This document shows positions 10,933 to 16,412 of a stretch of DNA of 64,000 bases, piece after piece. The position numbers and the translations under genes were made by a program. The notes beneath the pieces were generated by a model. The model made no database searches and was not told the origin of the DNA. It worked only from the letters and a program-made list of their open reading frames with translations. Position 1 is the first letter of the stretch, and each line of letters opens with the position of its first letter. This stretch comes from Streptomyces sp. NBC_01016 (lineage in GTDB: Bacteria > Actinomycetota > Actinomycetes > Streptomycetales > Streptomycetaceae): the NCBI RefSeq assembly GCF_026341035.1, contig NZ_JAPEOQ010000001.1:62001-126000 (forward strand), in the 5' to 3' direction.

Positions 10933-11862
10933 ATGTCGCAGACCGACGAGGCACCGCGCACGGAAGCGATACCCGGCGCCGGGCTCCGCTGGTGGACGGA
11001 ACTGCCGCTGATCCTCCTGGTGTACGGCGCGTACTCGGCGGGCCGACTGCTCGCCCGTGGCGATGTGGGACAGGCCGTCGACCACGGTCTCGCGATCCTC
11101 CGGGCCGAACAGGCCGTCCACCTCAACCTCGAGCACCCGCTGAACCGTCTCTTCACCCGCGAACCGTGGCTCGGCGTCCCCGCCGACTTCTGGTACGCCT
11201 CGCTCCACTATCTGGTCACGCCGATCGTCCTCGTCTGGCTGTTCCGCCGCCGCTCCGAGATCTACCGCACGGCCCGCACGTGGCTGATGACCTCGACGAT
11301 GATCGGCCTCATCGGCTTCGTCCTGCTGCCGACCAGCCCGCCCCGGCTGCTCGCCGCGAACCACGGCTTCATCGACACGATGGCCCACTACAGCTCGTAC
11401 GGCTGGTGGGGCGGCGCGGCCAGCGCCCCCAAGGGCATGGGCGGCCTGACCAACCAGTACGCGGCGATGCCGAGCCTGCACGTCGGCTGGGCGCTGTGGT
11501 GCGGCGTCCTGCTGTGGCGGCACGCCCGCTCCCCGTACGTGAAGGCGATGGGCGTCGCGTACCCGCTGCTCACCACGGTCATCGTGATGGGCACGGCCAA
11601 CCACTACTTCTTCGACGCGCTCGCCGGGGTCGCGGCGATGGCCCTCGGCCTGCTCCTGACGAAGCCGGTGCGGCTCGTCGCGGCACGCCTGAAGGACCGG
11701 GCGGGCCTCGTGCTCGCGGGGGCGCAGGCCTCCCCTTCCGCCACGCACGCCCCGATTGTCAGTGGAGAATGCCAGACTTCCCAGGGTGAGCGAATTCCCC
11801 GACAGCGCAAGGCAGCCGCGTCGCAGGACAGCGACGACGGGGCTGCGGCACCGGCTCGCTGA
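10933..11862 (+). CDS. PAP2-superfamily integral membrane protein
   Basis: This 309-residue multi-pass membrane protein has about six TM helices (LPLILLVYGAYSAGRLLA; LHYLVTPIVLVWLF; TSTMIGLIGFVLLP; WALWCGVLLW; YPLLTTVIVMG; ALAGVAAMALGLLL). The acid-phosphatase/PAP2 signature appears as NQYAAMPSLHVGWALW (SLH motif) and ANHYFFDALAG (second catalytic His and Asp). The longer N-terminus and DFWYASLHYLVTP motif match the inositol-phosphoryl-ceramide/AUR1-like branch of Streptomyces PAP2 proteins. It probably hydrolyses or transfers lipid phosphate at the membrane. Its end overlaps the start of the nuclease gene, so the two may be cotranscribed, though function gives no obvious link. Confidence 0.85.
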   Translation: MSQTDEAPRTEAIPGAGLRWWTELPLILLVYGAYSAGRLLARGDVGQAVDHGLAILRAEQAVHLNLEHPLNRLFTREPWLGVPADFWYASLHYLVTPIVLVWLFRRRSEIYRTARTWLMTSTMIGLIGFVLLPTSPPRLLAANHGFIDTMAHYSSYGWWGGAASAPKGMGGLTNQYAAMPSLHVGWALWCGVLLWRHARSPYVKAMGVAYPLLTTVIVMGTANHYFFDALAGVAAMALGLLLTKPVRLVAARLKDRAGLVLAGAQASPSATHAPIVSGECQTSQGERIPRQRKAAASQDSDDGAAAPAR

Positions 11863-12943
11863 ACTGCGCGGCCCCGACCATCCGCCGCGTCCGCTGGACG
11901 CCCGGGCCCTGGCCGCGCTCGCGGCGAACCCGGGCTGCCGAAGGCGGGCGCTCCTGGACGGCGCGGGGGTCGACAAGGCGCGCGTAGCGGATGCGCTGGG
12001 CTCACCGTCCTCGTTCGGCCAGTCCCAGTTCGCCCTGGCCCGCGGCAATGTGTTCGAGGCGCGGGTGAAGTCGGACGGCGGCGCGGAGCTGCTCAAGCTC
12101 GTCCACGCACGCGTGGACGGCACCGCGCCCGAGCCGACGCCCGATGTCGTACGGGCCCCCGACCTGTCGGCGATCGGCCCCGAGGGCCGCACGGCGCGCA
12201 CCGCGCTCGCCCTCCGGGAGGCCGTCGAGTCGCCGGGGACCTGGACGTTCCTCGACCACCCGATGCTGGCGCTCGATGTGGCGGGCAGCCCGGCGTTCCT
12301 GGAGCCGGACGCGGTGGTGGTGCATCCGGACGGCAGCTGGACGGTGGTAGAGATCAAGTCGTTCCCGATGATCGACGGTGCGGCGGACGCGTCGAAGGTG
12401 GGCGCGGCGGCCCGCCAGTCGGCGGTGTACGTGCTGGCCCTGGAGGAGGTCGCGGCGCGGATGCCGGACGCGGAGGTGCGGGTCAGGGACCGGATCGTCC
12501 TCGTCTGCCCCAAGGACTTCTCGAACCTGCCGGCCGCGTCGGCCGTCGACGTGCGCAAGCAACGGTCGGTGACGCGCCGCCAGTTGGCGCGCCTGACCCG
12601 CGTGGAGGACATCGCTGCGGCGCGTCCGCCGGGCACGGTCTTCGACCCGGAGCTGCCCACGGACGAGCTGACGGCGGCGGTCGAGTCGGTTCCCGCGACG
12701 TACGCGCCGGAGTGCCTGGCCGCGTGCGAGCTGGCGTTCCACTGCCGTGACCACGCGCGCGGGGAGGGCGCGGTGACCGCGCTCGGCCGCCCCTTGCGCG
12801 CCGAACTCGGCTCGCTGACCACGGTCGACGAGGTACTCGCCGCCGCCCACGGCGAGGCGGGCGACCCGGCGGACCCGACGGTGGCGGCGCTGCGCCGCGC
12901 GGCGACGCTGCGGGCCGAGGCACTCGGAGGTGCGCACCGGTGA
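11786..12943 (+). CDS. RecB/Cas4-like PD-(D/E)XK nuclease with probable Fe-S cluster
   Basis: This 385-residue protein (GTG start at VSEFPDS) begins inside the end of the PAP2 gene; a TTG or GTG 24-30 bases earlier is possible. The nuclease core reads GNVFE (87-91), EPDAVVV (Asp175), VEIKS (Glu189, Lys191) and QSAVY (Gln211/Tyr215). These are the G-E, D, E-x-K and QxxxY motifs of RecB-family exonucleases. Cys51 in NPGCRRR and a C-terminal Cys310-x3-Cys314-x5-Cys320 cluster match the four-cysteine iron-sulfur arrangement of Cas4, AddB and Dna2. It is coupled by a GTGA overlap to an unknown gene and then to an SF1 helicase. No cas genes are near, so a CRISPR role is unlikely. Confidence 0.75.
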   Translation: MSEFPDSARQPRRRTATTGLRHRLAELRGPDHPPRPLDARALAALAANPGCRRRALLDGAGVDKARVADALGSPSSFGQSQFALARGNVFEARVKSDGGAELLKLVHARVDGTAPEPTPDVVRAPDLSAIGPEGRTARTALALREAVESPGTWTFLDHPMLALDVAGSPAFLEPDAVVVHPDGSWTVVEIKSFPMIDGAADASKVGAAARQSAVYVLALEEVAARMPDAEVRVRDRIVLVCPKDFSNLPAASAVDVRKQRSVTRRQLARLTRVEDIAAARPPGTVFDPELPTDELTAAVESVPATYAPECLAACELAFHCRDHARGEGAVTALGRPLRAELGSLTTVDEVLAAAHGEAGDPADPTVAALRRAATLRAEALGGAHR

Positions 12944-14538
12944 GCCTGATCAACCATCTGGCCCGGCTGGAAGCCACCCACTCGGGACGCGCCCAGCGTT
13001 CGGCCACGGTGCGGCACCGCCACCTGTCCCAGCGCCCCCTGGTGGTCGTGCCGCTCACGACGGCCGGTGAGACCGGCGCTCCGCTCGGCGCGCTCGTCGG
13101 CACCGAGCGCACATCGCCGCGGCTCCTGGTCGTCCCGCAGCCCCGCGACCGCGACCTCCGCTTCGCGTTCCTGACGCAACTGGCCGATGAGGTCCTGCCG
13201 TACATCGACACGTACGCCACCGATGTCGAGGCCGCCGAGCGCAGCGAGGTCGACCCGGAGACCGGCAAGAAGGTCAAGGTCGAGGTCGAACTGTGCGCGG
13301 ACGCCCCGCAGATGATCGTGCCGGGCCGCGCGGGCATCGAGTTCCTCCGCCTCCTCGGCCGCTCCATGCGCTTTCGCCGCACCGCCGAGCAGGACCCGGA
13401 GACGCCCTACCCCGCGCCGCCGCACGTCCCGCTCCTCGGCCGCTGGCTCACGCACTTCGGGGAGCGGTCACGGGTCCCCGGCTCCGCCCTGCTCCTCGCG
13501 ATGACGGACCTGCTGTCGCGGCACTGGGCGACGGGCCAGTCGAGCCTGGAGGACCAGCACTTGGGCGCGCTGCTCGCCTGGATCGAGGCACCGGAAGGCA
13601 CCTCGGGCGCGGCGGCCGCGCTCGGCGCCGAGCTGGACCGCGACAGGCACGGGCAGCTGCTCTGCCCGCCTGCGGGCCCCGCCACGGACCCCGCGTTCGA
13701 CAACAAGCTGCTCGCGCCCGCGATCGAGCGCTACGACAAGGCCCGTACGCGCCACGCGGCCGCCGAGGACGCCGTCGAGGCCGAGGGCCGCCTCGCCGAA
13801 CTGACCGCAGCCGAGCGGGAGATCAACGCCCTGGTCGAGTCCCGTACCCGGCCCACCTGGGACGCGGTGTGGCGCGGCCTCGACCAGCTGTGCACGCTGC
13901 CCGAGGGCGCGTACGCGGCGGAGCGCTGGACCCGCGACCGCTGGTCGTTCACCGGGCACCGCGACCGGGTCCTCGCGGGCGAGCCCCCGCAGCCGCGCCG
14001 CGACGACGCGGTGACGGCGGCGAACAAGCTGGCCACGCGCGAGCGCGAGCAGGCCCGCCTGGACGCGCAGGAGGCGCTGGACGACCCGCTGGTGATGGCG
14101 GGCCGCCGCCTCTCAGGCGAGGCGTTCGCCGGTGAGGTGACCGAGGTGGTGGCGGCGTACAACGAGAAGAAGCGGCCCCGCCCGCTCGTCACGCTCCGCA
14201 CGCAGGACGGGCCGCGCCTCGGCGTGGGCGTGAAGGTGTACCGCACCCTCGAAGGCAAGCCGCAGACGGCCGAGTTCGTGGGTTACGAGGACGAGGGCGC
14301 CGAGGGCACGGACGCCCCCGTCGTGCTGCGGATCCTGGACAAGATGGGGCGCGGCAAGGAGCCGGCCGAGGGCTCGCTGCCGGAGAAGGGCGAGCGGATC
14401 TGCTGGACGCTGTTCGAGCACGAGCAGCGCGGCGGCCCCAAGCTGCCGGAGCCGGAGGAGACACCGTGGACGCACGGCGGCCCGCCGGGGACGGGCGCGG
14501 AGTCGCCCGACACCGTGACTTCGGAGGACGTGCTGTGA
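12940..14538 (+). CDS. Unknown 532-residue protein between nuclease and helicase
   Basis: This protein starts with GTG overlapping the nuclease stop (GTGA) and ends overlapping the helicase start (GTGA), so its level is tied to both. It has no signal peptide or TM helix. A basic N-terminus (LARLEATHSGRAQRSATVRHRHL) leads to a globular first half. A charged probable coiled coil follows around residues 265-300 (AAAEDAVEAEGRLAELTAAEREINALVE), and a beta-rich C-terminal part (GVGVKVYRTLEGKPQTAEFVGYED; VVLRILDKMGRG) precedes an acidic Pro-rich tail. I do not recognise any family. Context suggests a DNA-binding or scaffold subunit of a nuclease-helicase complex. Confidence 0.8.
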   Translation: MSLINHLARLEATHSGRAQRSATVRHRHLSQRPLVVVPLTTAGETGAPLGALVGTERTSPRLLVVPQPRDRDLRFAFLTQLADEVLPYIDTYATDVEAAERSEVDPETGKKVKVEVELCADAPQMIVPGRAGIEFLRLLGRSMRFRRTAEQDPETPYPAPPHVPLLGRWLTHFGERSRVPGSALLLAMTDLLSRHWATGQSSLEDQHLGALLAWIEAPEGTSGAAAALGAELDRDRHGQLLCPPAGPATDPAFDNKLLAPAIERYDKARTRHAAAEDAVEAEGRLAELTAAEREINALVESRTRPTWDAVWRGLDQLCTLPEGAYAAERWTRDRWSFTGHRDRVLAGEPPQPRRDDAVTAANKLATREREQARLDAQEALDDPLVMAGRRLSGEAFAGEVTEVVAAYNEKKRPRPLVTLRTQDGPRLGVGVKVYRTLEGKPQTAEFVGYEDEGAEGTDAPVVLRILDKMGRGKEPAEGSLPEKGERICWTLFEHEQRGGPKLPEPEETPWTHGGPPGTGAESPDTVTSEDVL

Positions 14539-15902
14539 CCACGACGACCACGCCCACAACCACGACCACCGCCCTCAGCCCGTCAGAGGCGGCCGGGCAG
14601 GCGACCGCCGCCATCCTCCGCGACACCCTGCACGGCACGGCGCGCGGCATCGTCGTCGACTCGCCTCCCGGCGCCGGAAAGTCCACCCTCGTGGTGCGCG
14701 CCGCGCTCGAACTCGCGGACGCGGGCCGCCCATTGATGATCGTTGCGCAGACGAACGCGCAGGTGGACGACCTCGTCCTCCGCCTCCACACGAAGAACCC
14801 GGAGCTCGCCGTCGGCCGACTGCACAGCAGCGACCCGGACGCGTACGAGAAGGCGCTCGACGACCTGCCGAACGTCCGTCTGTCGACGAAGGTCGGCGAC
14901 CTGTCCCCGCTGCCGATCGTCGTCTCGACGGCCGCGAAGTGGGCGCACGTCAAGGACGTCGAGCCGTGGCCGCACGCGATCGTCGACGAGGCGTACCAGA
15001 TGCGCTCCGACGCGCTGCTCGCCGTGGCGGGGCTGTTCGAGCGGGCGCTGTTCGTGGGCGACCCGGGGCAGTTGGACCCGTTCGCGATCGTCGGCTCGGA
15101 GCAGTGGGCGGGCCTGTCCTACGACCCGTCGGCCTCGGCGGTGTCGACGCTGCTCGCCCACAACCCGGAGCTGCCGCAGCACCGCCTCCCGGTCTCCTGG
15201 CGCCTCCCGGCGTCCGCGGCCCCACTCGTATCGGACGCCTTCTACCCGTACACGCCGTTCCGCAGCGGCACGGACGAGGGCGACCGGGAGCTGGACTTCA
15301 AGGTGGCGTCGGACGGTTCGGGCCCGGACCTGGTCATCGACGAGGCGGCGGCCTCCGGCTGGGGCCTGCTCGAACTCCCCGCCGCGCACACGCCACGTAC
15401 GGACCCGGAGGCGGTACGGGCCGTGGCCCTGGTCGTACGACGACTGCTCGACCGGGAGGGCGTCACGCGCTCCGAGTCCGGCGAGGGCGCGCTGACGGCC
15501 GACCGGATCTGCGTCGGCACCGCGCACCGCGACCAGGCGGCGGCGGTACGGGCGGCGCTGGAGGACCTCGACGTCAAGGACGTCACCGTCGACACGGCGA
15601 ACCGCCTTCAGGGCCGCGAGTTCGACGTCACCGTCGTCCTGCACCCACTGTCCGGACGCCCCGACGCGACGGCGTTCCACTTGGAGACGGGCCGGCTCTG
15701 CGTCCTCGCGTCACGGCATCGGCACGCGTGCGTGGTGGTGTGCAGGGCCGGAGTCGCGGACCTCCTGGACGAACACCCGTCGGCGGACCCGGTGCAACTC
15801 GGGGTGACGGTGAAATTCCCGGACGGCTGGGAGGCGAACCACTCAGTCCTGGCCCGCCTGTCCGAACACCGGGTCCACCACTCAAGCCCCTGCGGCGATT
15901 GA
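14535..15902 (+). CDS. SF1 helicase/ATPase of the UPF1/Dna2 type
   Basis: This 455-residue ATPase starts at GTG 14535 (VTTTTTPTTTTTALSPSEAAGQ). Helicase motifs in order: Walker A SPPGAGKST (43-51), Walker B IVDEAYQM (DEA 151-153), motif III FVGDPGQLDPF (175-180), motif IV arginine in PVSWRLP (R223), motif V DTANRLQGREFDV (QGRE 359-362) and motif VI VLASRHRHACVVV (393-397). The GDPGQL and QGRE forms point to SF1B helicases such as Dna2 and UPF1. It is shorter than most because the usual 1B/2B inserts are small. The last residues (SSPCGD) and the stop are encoded by a family A palindromic repeat. It is the third gene of the coupled trio. Confidence 0.85.
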   Translation: MTTTTTPTTTTTALSPSEAAGQATAAILRDTLHGTARGIVVDSPPGAGKSTLVVRAALELADAGRPLMIVAQTNAQVDDLVLRLHTKNPELAVGRLHSSDPDAYEKALDDLPNVRLSTKVGDLSPLPIVVSTAAKWAHVKDVEPWPHAIVDEAYQMRSDALLAVAGLFERALFVGDPGQLDPFAIVGSEQWAGLSYDPSASAVSTLLAHNPELPQHRLPVSWRLPASAAPLVSDAFYPYTPFRSGTDEGDRELDFKVASDGSGPDLVIDEAAASGWGLLELPAAHTPRTDPEAVRAVALVVRRLLDREGVTRSESGEGALTADRICVGTAHRDQAAAVRAALEDLDVKDVTVDTANRLQGREFDVTVVLHPLSGRPDATAFHLETGRLCVLASRHRHACVVVCRAGVADLLDEHPSADPVQLGVTVKFPDGWEANHSVLARLSEHRVHHSSPCGD

Positions 15903-16061: not shown

Positions 16062-16412
16062 ATGGCGGAGCCCGACCGTACTCACCAGCCCCGGCTGCGA
16101 CCCGCCCCGCTGATCTTCGAACCCGCGGAGGCGTCCGCCGACCCGGAGCACTTCTTCGACCTGGAGTCCATCGAGGACCCCCGCGACCTGCTCACCCGCG
16201 CCACGGAGCTGACCCACGCGTTCCGCTCCGCGGCGGACCGGTCCATGGAGTTCCAGGCCGTCGCCGCGGCGCAGCTCGCGGACCCGCGCCGCTTCGACCG
16301 GCTCACCACGGCGGACATCGCGGAGCGCGCGGACTGGACCGAGGACTATGCGAAGAAGATGGTCGAGTTCGGCCGCGATCTGCTGCGCGGGAGCCAGGAA
16401 CAGACGACGTGA
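16062..16412 (+). CDS. Small conserved protein of unknown function
   Basis: This 116-residue acidic protein has an excellent AGGAGGCC ribosome site nine bases before ATG. It is soluble and mostly helical (DPRDLLTRATELTHAFRSAADRSMEFQAVAAAQLADP; IAERADWTEDYAKKMVEFGRDLL). It lies 159 bases after the helicase in the same direction, separated by a repeat that may end the operon. I do not recognise the family; the second half looks like a small HTH-like segment (LTTADIAERADWTEDYAKKMV), weakly supported. Confidence 0.72.
   Translation: MAEPDRTHQPRLRPAPLIFEPAEASADPEHFFDLESIEDPRDLLTRATELTHAFRSAADRSMEFQAVAAAQLADPRRFDRLTTADIAERADWTEDYAKKMVEFGRDLLRGSQEQTT

Follow-up and report, generated by a model that had tools for sequence, protein, structure and literature searches.

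A 64,000-nucleotide stretch of the Streptomyces sp. NBC_01016 genome (10.0 Mb, two contigs), hereafter the window (G000:C2:62001-126000; G, C, and L numbers denote genomes, contigs, and loci), contains three consecutive genes, here termed A, B, and C (Table 1), predicted to encode a nuclease, a scaffold, and a helicase motor, respectively. The three are joined by GTGA overlaps, as an earlier note on this DNA had read them. All 41 loci that bear the three genes, among them the window's own, have the order A-B-C without exception, and in 36 of these the A-B step was an overlap of 1, 4, or 10 bases, with starts picked by script. Given this constant order and the frequency of A-B overlaps, the arrangement is more than chance, and A, B, and C form a real, conserved unit.

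Table 1. Features of the three-gene unit (positions in the window)
Feature	Position	Strand	Description or basis
Gene A	11786-12943	+	385 aa; predicted Fe-S-type RecB-family (PD-(D/E)XK) nuclease subunit
A cysteines, predicted Fe-S ligands	C51 11936-11938; C310, C314, C320 12713-12745	+	invariant in alignment
A catalytic core codons	D175 12308-12310; E189 12350-12352; K191 12356-12358 (span 12308-12358)	+	sequence
GTGA overlap A/B	12940-12943	+	sequence reading
Gene B	12940-14538	+	532 aa; predicted scaffold
B residues 31-378	13030-14073	+	predicted RNase H-like exonuclease fold without acidic motifs I and II
B residues 391-493	14110-14418	+	predicted helicase 1B barrel supplied in trans
GTGA overlap B/C	14535-14538	+	sequence reading
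Gene C	14535-15902	+	455 aa; SF1 helicase motor, Dna2/Upf1 type
C motif I (Walker A), SPPGAGKST, residues 43-51	14661-14687	+	sequence

Judged by its sequence, C is a superfamily 1 (SF1) helicase of the Dna2/Upf1 type, in agreement with the full motif set that the earlier note had reported for the third gene. The motifs SPPGAGKST, DEAYQ, GDPGQLDP, SWRLP, VDTANRLQGRE, and ASRHRHA begin at residues 43, 151, 175, 221, 352, and 392, and the protein scored over the cut-off for AAA_11, AAA_12, and AAA_30. Its best solved relatives by PDB profile were DNA2, at the top, and SMUBP-2, with UPF1 also among its relatives. K49 was kept in every row reached (79 core, 6 Ppr-linked, and 13 SbcCD-linked copies, the last two classes being described below; L038, which has a broken frame, was left out of the C alignment). 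In Upf1, Sen1, and Dna2, a 1B barrel stands ahead of motif I. No such barrel was found in the chain of C, where motif I begins at residue 43 and therefore leaves no room for one.

The RecB-family motif set noted earlier for the first gene was likewise present in A, as RGNVFE at residue 86, EPD with D175, VVEIKSF with E189-x-K191, and RQSAVY at residue 210. Five of 80 core loci failed to reach most A positions, and D175, E189, K191, Q211, and Y215 were intact in all 75 that were reached. The structure model of A fitted the Cas4, EXO5, AddB, and Dna2 nucleases and has the RecB-family nuclease fold. Four cysteines, C51, C310, C314, and C320, were invariant across 74 aligned A proteins (L036, another broken frame, was omitted), one lying before and three after the nuclease motifs, while a fifth, C241, fell outside the invariant list. 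In number and placement these cysteines match the Cas4/AddB-like iron-sulfur (Fe-S) arrangement that had been claimed for them, but their C-terminal spacing does not, being Cx3Cx5C rather than the Cx2Cx5C usual in Cas4, AddB, and Dna2; the latter spacing was seen in this analysis only in PprPDDEXK. Nor were cas genes found beside the trio in the stretches read, a further difference from Cas4. PDB profile matches of A, all weak and in part short repeat alignments to designed proteins, were rejected. From fold and residue conservation, A is predicted to be an Fe-S-type RecB-family nuclease, and both an Fe-S cluster and nuclease activity are predicted with it. The start of A at 11786 falls within the upstream PAP2-like open frame (10933-11862), overlapping its last 77 bases, and the first 15 residues were modeled at a predicted local distance difference test score (pLDDT) below 50; hence, the true start may be further in.

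B appears to be the new piece of the trio. Its structure model (pLDDT 90) reads as the exonuclease fold of family-B polymerases followed by the 1B barrel of Upf1/Dna2-type helicases. Acidic motifs I and II of the exonuclease-like fold are lost, and this part is predicted to be inactive; the best helicase matches of the barrel were Senataxin and Sen1. A match of B to NucC (E 0.11) was rejected. The earlier description of this gene product as an unknown protein therefore stands for sequence families and is changed for predicted fold, which has known counterparts. With a predicted barrel in B and none in C, the helicase itself is probably encoded in two parts by separate genes.

According to the available part of PMC7430649, Bad, the bacterial DNA2-like protein of Geobacillus, combines an Fe-S nuclease with single-stranded DNA endonuclease activity and a 5'-3' helicase. 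As described there, Bad resembles the trio in that a long extra region separates its Fe-S-type RecB-family nuclease from the SF1 helicase that follows, but Bad is one chain, whereas the trio was three genes in 41 of 41 loci, and the two are likened by description, not by sequence. The same text leaves the structure and function of Bad's central domain unexplained, and it notes that Mycobacteria and Rhodococcus have a second class of DNA2-like protein, perhaps the TM0106 proteins (TIGR03491). TM0106 proteins have the nuclease, RNase H-like domain, and helicase in the same order as the trio, and their helicase can be aligned with C (hhalign E 4.8e-22). Furthermore, of 396 Actinomycetota genomes in an even phylum sample, 14 had B, 48 had TIGR03491 above its cut-off, and only G107 had both. 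Shared domain order and rare overlap are what would be expected if the trio were a split orthologue of TM0106, doing in three chains the work done by one in other Actinomycetota. We consider this distinctly improbable, since A, B, and C had no TIGR03491 match at E 1, C alone was significant by hhalign, and the rare overlap may reflect lineage alone. The same hhalign result led us to reject a direct kinship in sequence between TM0106 proteins and A or B. TM0106 proteins also differ from the trio in being fused and in their RNase_H_2 domain, which Pfam recognizes between nuclease and helicase; neither Pfam nor hhalign gave an RNase_H_2 signal in B, although its model has the RNase H-like exonuclease match. 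Eukaryotic Dna2 is a single chain and is not known to have a B-like exonuclease fold. In AddAB, AdnAB, and RecBCD, the nuclease is found at the C-terminus of a UvrD/RecB-type helicase chain, whereas A stands alone and C is of the Dna2/Upf1 type. Of the split Dna2/AddAB-like machine first suggested for this locus, the Dna2 half is thus retained, and an AddAB-like machine is rejected because the single motor is of the wrong type.

To define the distribution of the unit, its genes were searched in several genome sets. B was present in 187 of 199 Streptomyces genomes. Among 61 genomes, comprising the window's own and its relatives, B was found in 45, or 44 without a match in G057 to the C-terminus of B that was rejected as spurious (28%, one stop inside, and no fitting gene among the listed frames); A was found in 43, all of which also have B. 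Twelve of the 14 genomes with B in the phylum sample were Streptomyces. Beyond the genus, the best 120 rows of two profile searches included relatives in Kitasatospora, Catenulispora, Nocardia, Amycolatopsis, Actinospica, Micromonospora, and others, named, where a name was given, 'hypothetical', 'secreted', or 'uncharacterized'. In the best 80 of 541 named Streptomyces loci, counted only where the flank sufficed, A and C were each next to B in 74 of 74, bearing out the three-gene co-occurrence that the earlier note had proposed to survey. The PAP2-like gene was the conserved upstream neighbor (73/74), and a histidine-phosphatase-like gene (70/71), a small downstream gene (16062-16412; 68/72), and a GGDEF-EAL gene (55/62) were also retained. 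G250 and several other genomes have two rows for a single core copy. This single syntenic place indicates that the window's trio belongs to the core genome. The small gene directly behind C encodes 116 residues and may belong to the same neighborhood as the trio. At the core loci of G010 and G031, B was matched as two pieces in different stretches, possibly decayed or misread copies; in G010, B was in two frames with no A match.

In contrast to the core copy, a second, near-full copy of B was present in only 17 of the 199 Streptomyces genomes. These were G009, G022, G033, and G036, whose second copies were 42 to 46% identical to the window's B, G239 and G303, and eleven more found on re-search of 24 of the 30 genomes with at least two matches; G540, with only fragments of a possible second copy, was left out. 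Neighboring genes were called by a codon-usage script, which missed some cl3 genes (see below) that a separate search found, and were named for representatives by Pfam, PADLOC, and NCBIfam. PADLOC was run on neighbors from L126, L128, L129, L135, L178, L179, L181, and L186-L188, while the Jet labels at L180, L182, and L138, the JetC likeness at L134, and all Ppr labels except that of L126 come from BLAST to labeled relatives. Upstream of A, second copies carry a fourth gene of ~280 codons, cl3 (for example, L135:7261-8100), that matched no family in Pfam, PADLOC, or NCBIfam. Searched alone in the 199 genomes, cl3 returned the same 17 with a second copy plus one match at E 7e-4 in G495, and none in the window's genome.

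Divergent to this module was SbcD-SbcC in 10 of the 17 (L129, L130, L178-L182, and L186-L188) and genes of the Ppr (pPIWI-RE) type in six (L126, L127, L131, and L183-L185). The remaining locus, L128, had neither, but carried the Wadjet type II genes JetABC. At L130 (G239), the contig also bears a Ppr-type gene, ~17 kb away from the trio. Outside Streptomyces, SbcCD was found at L134, L135, and L138; L132 has cl3 with no SbcCD, Ppr, or Wadjet within the 20 kb read; and L133, L136, and L137 are without cl3, with no C called at L133. Of 17 places with the non-Ppr module, comprising 15 genome loci and two plasmids, 10 had Wadjet adjoining it, as type II at L128, L129, L180, and, by JetC likeness, L134; as type III at L181 (JetA3) and its relatives L138 and L182; and as type I at L179 and on plasmids NZ_CP027023.1 and NZ_CP108489.1, where the Jet labels are the records' own. 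On NZ_CP108489.1 (Streptomyces sp. NBC_01244, linear, 300 kb) the genes run SMC-family ATPase, SbcD, cl3, A, B, C, DUF3375, DUF4194, ATP-binding protein, and JetD, with cl3, A, and C judged from place and length; on NZ_CP027023.1 only short annotated pieces are left on the SbcCD side. A third match in the plasmid collection, an 11.85-Mb Nonomuraea record, was left out of the plasmid count. Two more defense-like genes, for a type IV methyl-directed restriction enzyme homologue (L188:3231-7472) and a large helicase, named SNF2-like by eye (L127:12735-15911), also neighbor second copies.

This gene context makes a defense role likely for most second copies. The neighbors of second copies, Wadjet (JetABCD), Ppr, and SbcCD, are absent around the window's copy: no match at E 1e-5 to cl3, SbcC, SbcD, Jet, Ppr, or SNF2 reference proteins was found in the window or the 80 core loci (median 17.6 kb), and a defense island around the window's copy was rejected. 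Phage defense, one of the roles first proposed for the trio, consequently fits the mobile relatives and not the copy in the window. Carriage of the trio by phages was also rejected, given that an accessory B had no match among 50,697 phage records and that none of five pattern matches in IMG/VR was a relative of the window's B. The window's genome encodes a single SbcD, which lies on the other contig, as well as a pair of large, adjacent PDDEXK_1 proteins, probably AdnAB; hence, the core trio would offer an additional route for DNA ends.

Several SbcCD-linked modules were near chromosome ends, 6.8 kb away in G505 (L178, G505:C1:1-18200) and ~21.5 kb from both ends of contig C1 in G465 and G539, and the module of NZ_CP108489.1 is 12.8 kb from the end of the linear plasmid. 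The SbcCD-linked module of G520 was 520 kb from an end, and three Ppr-linked ones were 1.2 to 2.9 Mb away. Proximity of several second copies to chromosome ends, the core place and near-universal presence of the trio, and the lack of a defense gene adjoining the core copy would all suit a purely housekeeping helicase-nuclease that maintains chromosomes at breaks or stalled forks, with the second copies as passengers in defense-rich arms and plasmids. That account is unlikely in our judgment: second copies pair tightly and divergently with SbcCD or Ppr, always with cl3, and passenger status leaves unexplained why the A active site was lost in the Ppr branch only.

Ppr (PF18155) was found in 34 of the 199 genomes, at 36 places, and the trio is an extra at six of these. 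In all six Ppr-linked copies the active site of A was lost (K191 is R in six, E189 is L in four, and D175 is Q in two; the three residues were whole in none), while the four cysteines of A and 14 listed motor residues of C were kept. D175, E189, and K191 were whole in 13 of 13 SbcCD-linked copies, 2 of 2 other cl3-bearing copies, and 3 of 3 cl3-less copies, as in the core copies. The neighboring PprPDDEXK retained KPD, E-x-K, motif H, and four cysteines (Cx2Cx5C) in six of six. Loss of the A active site beside an intact PprPDDEXK implies that the motor and scaffold are the parts kept. In the tree, the six Ppr copies formed one clade (100/100) along with two Streptomyces proteins of unread context, and the 10 core rows formed another (100/100). 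SbcCD-linked copies fell into two groups, and in the larger one Streptomyces rows are mixed with those from another family, Kitasatospora, and Amycolatopsis, a pattern expected for mobile genes. L128, which lacks SbcCD, sits inside this larger group. Deep branches of the tree are long, and the tool warns of false joins.

The link of one branch to Ppr, for which the available part of PMC3702460 proposes a DinG helicase acting on R-loops, also bears on an RNA-directed account, in which C would act in a Sen1/Upf1-like manner on RNA or RNA-DNA hybrids, A would trim the displaced DNA strand, and Ppr systems would share the platform. The Senataxin and Sen1 matches of the B barrel and the presence of UPF1 among the relatives of C speak for such a machine. 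DNA2 is, however, the best solved relative of C by profile, the relatives of A are DNA nucleases, and SbcCD and Wadjet act on DNA, and we regard this as the least probable of the accounts weighed here.

Taken together, we somewhat favor the view that A, B, and C constitute a three-subunit, DNA-end-processing helicase-nuclease of the Dna2/Bad kind, whose core copy would be housekeeping and whose mobile copies would be directed against foreign DNA. Assembly of the three proteins is predicted, and the work of the complex, including its activity and direction, is what we infer by analogy. C would provide the motor, and A likely cuts single-stranded DNA with its Fe-S-type RecB-family nuclease; B likely joins the two through its inactive exonuclease-like fold and supplies the 1B barrel missing from C. 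By analogy with Bad, a DNA end would be the loading site of ABC, followed by unwinding and cutting of the strand. In the core copy, this activity would serve housekeeping, through the unwinding and trimming of ends that are broken or blocked. In mobile copies with cl3, SbcCD may sense or open the end, whereupon ABC would unwind and degrade foreign DNA, and SbcCD with ABC could handle linear DNA left by a neighboring Wadjet. In Ppr-linked copies, PprPDDEXK would cut in place of the dead A.

Several results weigh against this view. Searches of Pfam, NCBIfam, and PADLOC at E 1 gave no family for A, and sequence profiles tie it to no known nuclease; the profile searches that the earlier note had proposed as a check thus failed to identify a nuclease, the support coming instead from fold and residue conservation. 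For B, there was no sequence-family match above chance (one 12-bit Pfam entry was far under its cut-off), Foldseek returned nothing at E 0.001 in PDB or viral models, the assigned folds rest on moderate Z, and nonhelicase barrels scored close to Sen1 in the barrel comparison. The nonsignificant alignments of A and B to TM0106 proteins count on the same side, as does the lack of Wadjet in the stretch read at 7 of the 17 non-Ppr places (L130, L132, L135, L178, and L186-L188).

A broader proposal is that cl3-A-B-C and SbcD-SbcC together make up an as yet undescribed Mre11-Rad50-Dna2 system of bacteria, which is carried as the second half of Wadjet and destroys linear DNA. Wadjet would open circular invaders, and the module would sense, unwind, and degrade both the resulting linear product and linear replicons. 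The motor and scaffold would be a portable platform that takes the cutters of other systems, PprPDDEXK in the Ppr branch, and the core trio would be the family's housekeeping member. We advance this tentatively, as possible rather than probable. Wadjet cuts circular DNA, and linear plasmids escape it, according to the available part of a review (PMC10586767). PADLOC models gave no match to A or B and a weak, partial one to C (best MkoC, 29 bits). In the PMC literature searched (on the trio, DNA2-like bacterial enzymes, TM0106, Wadjet or Ppr with SbcCD, and Streptomyces resection; most subscription papers and all preprints lay outside its scope), neither the trio nor the SbcCD-cl3-ABC-Wadjet run was described in the available text of the papers, including PMC3702460, PMC10853773, and PMC12839542. 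This agrees with the earlier note, which could name no described system with this exact trio.

A near-universal operon of a model genus, annotated as hypothetical proteins, apparently encodes a whole helicase-nuclease. It would present the Dna2 idea in a new bacterial form, in which two genes are predicted to share the helicase itself between them, and B gives a predicted fold for a middle part of the kind left unexplained for Bad. The mobile copies place Mre11-Rad50, a Dna2-like machine, and Wadjet in a single gene run, which opens to testing the questions of how Wadjet-cut DNA is disposed of and whether linear elements spared by Wadjet are attacked.

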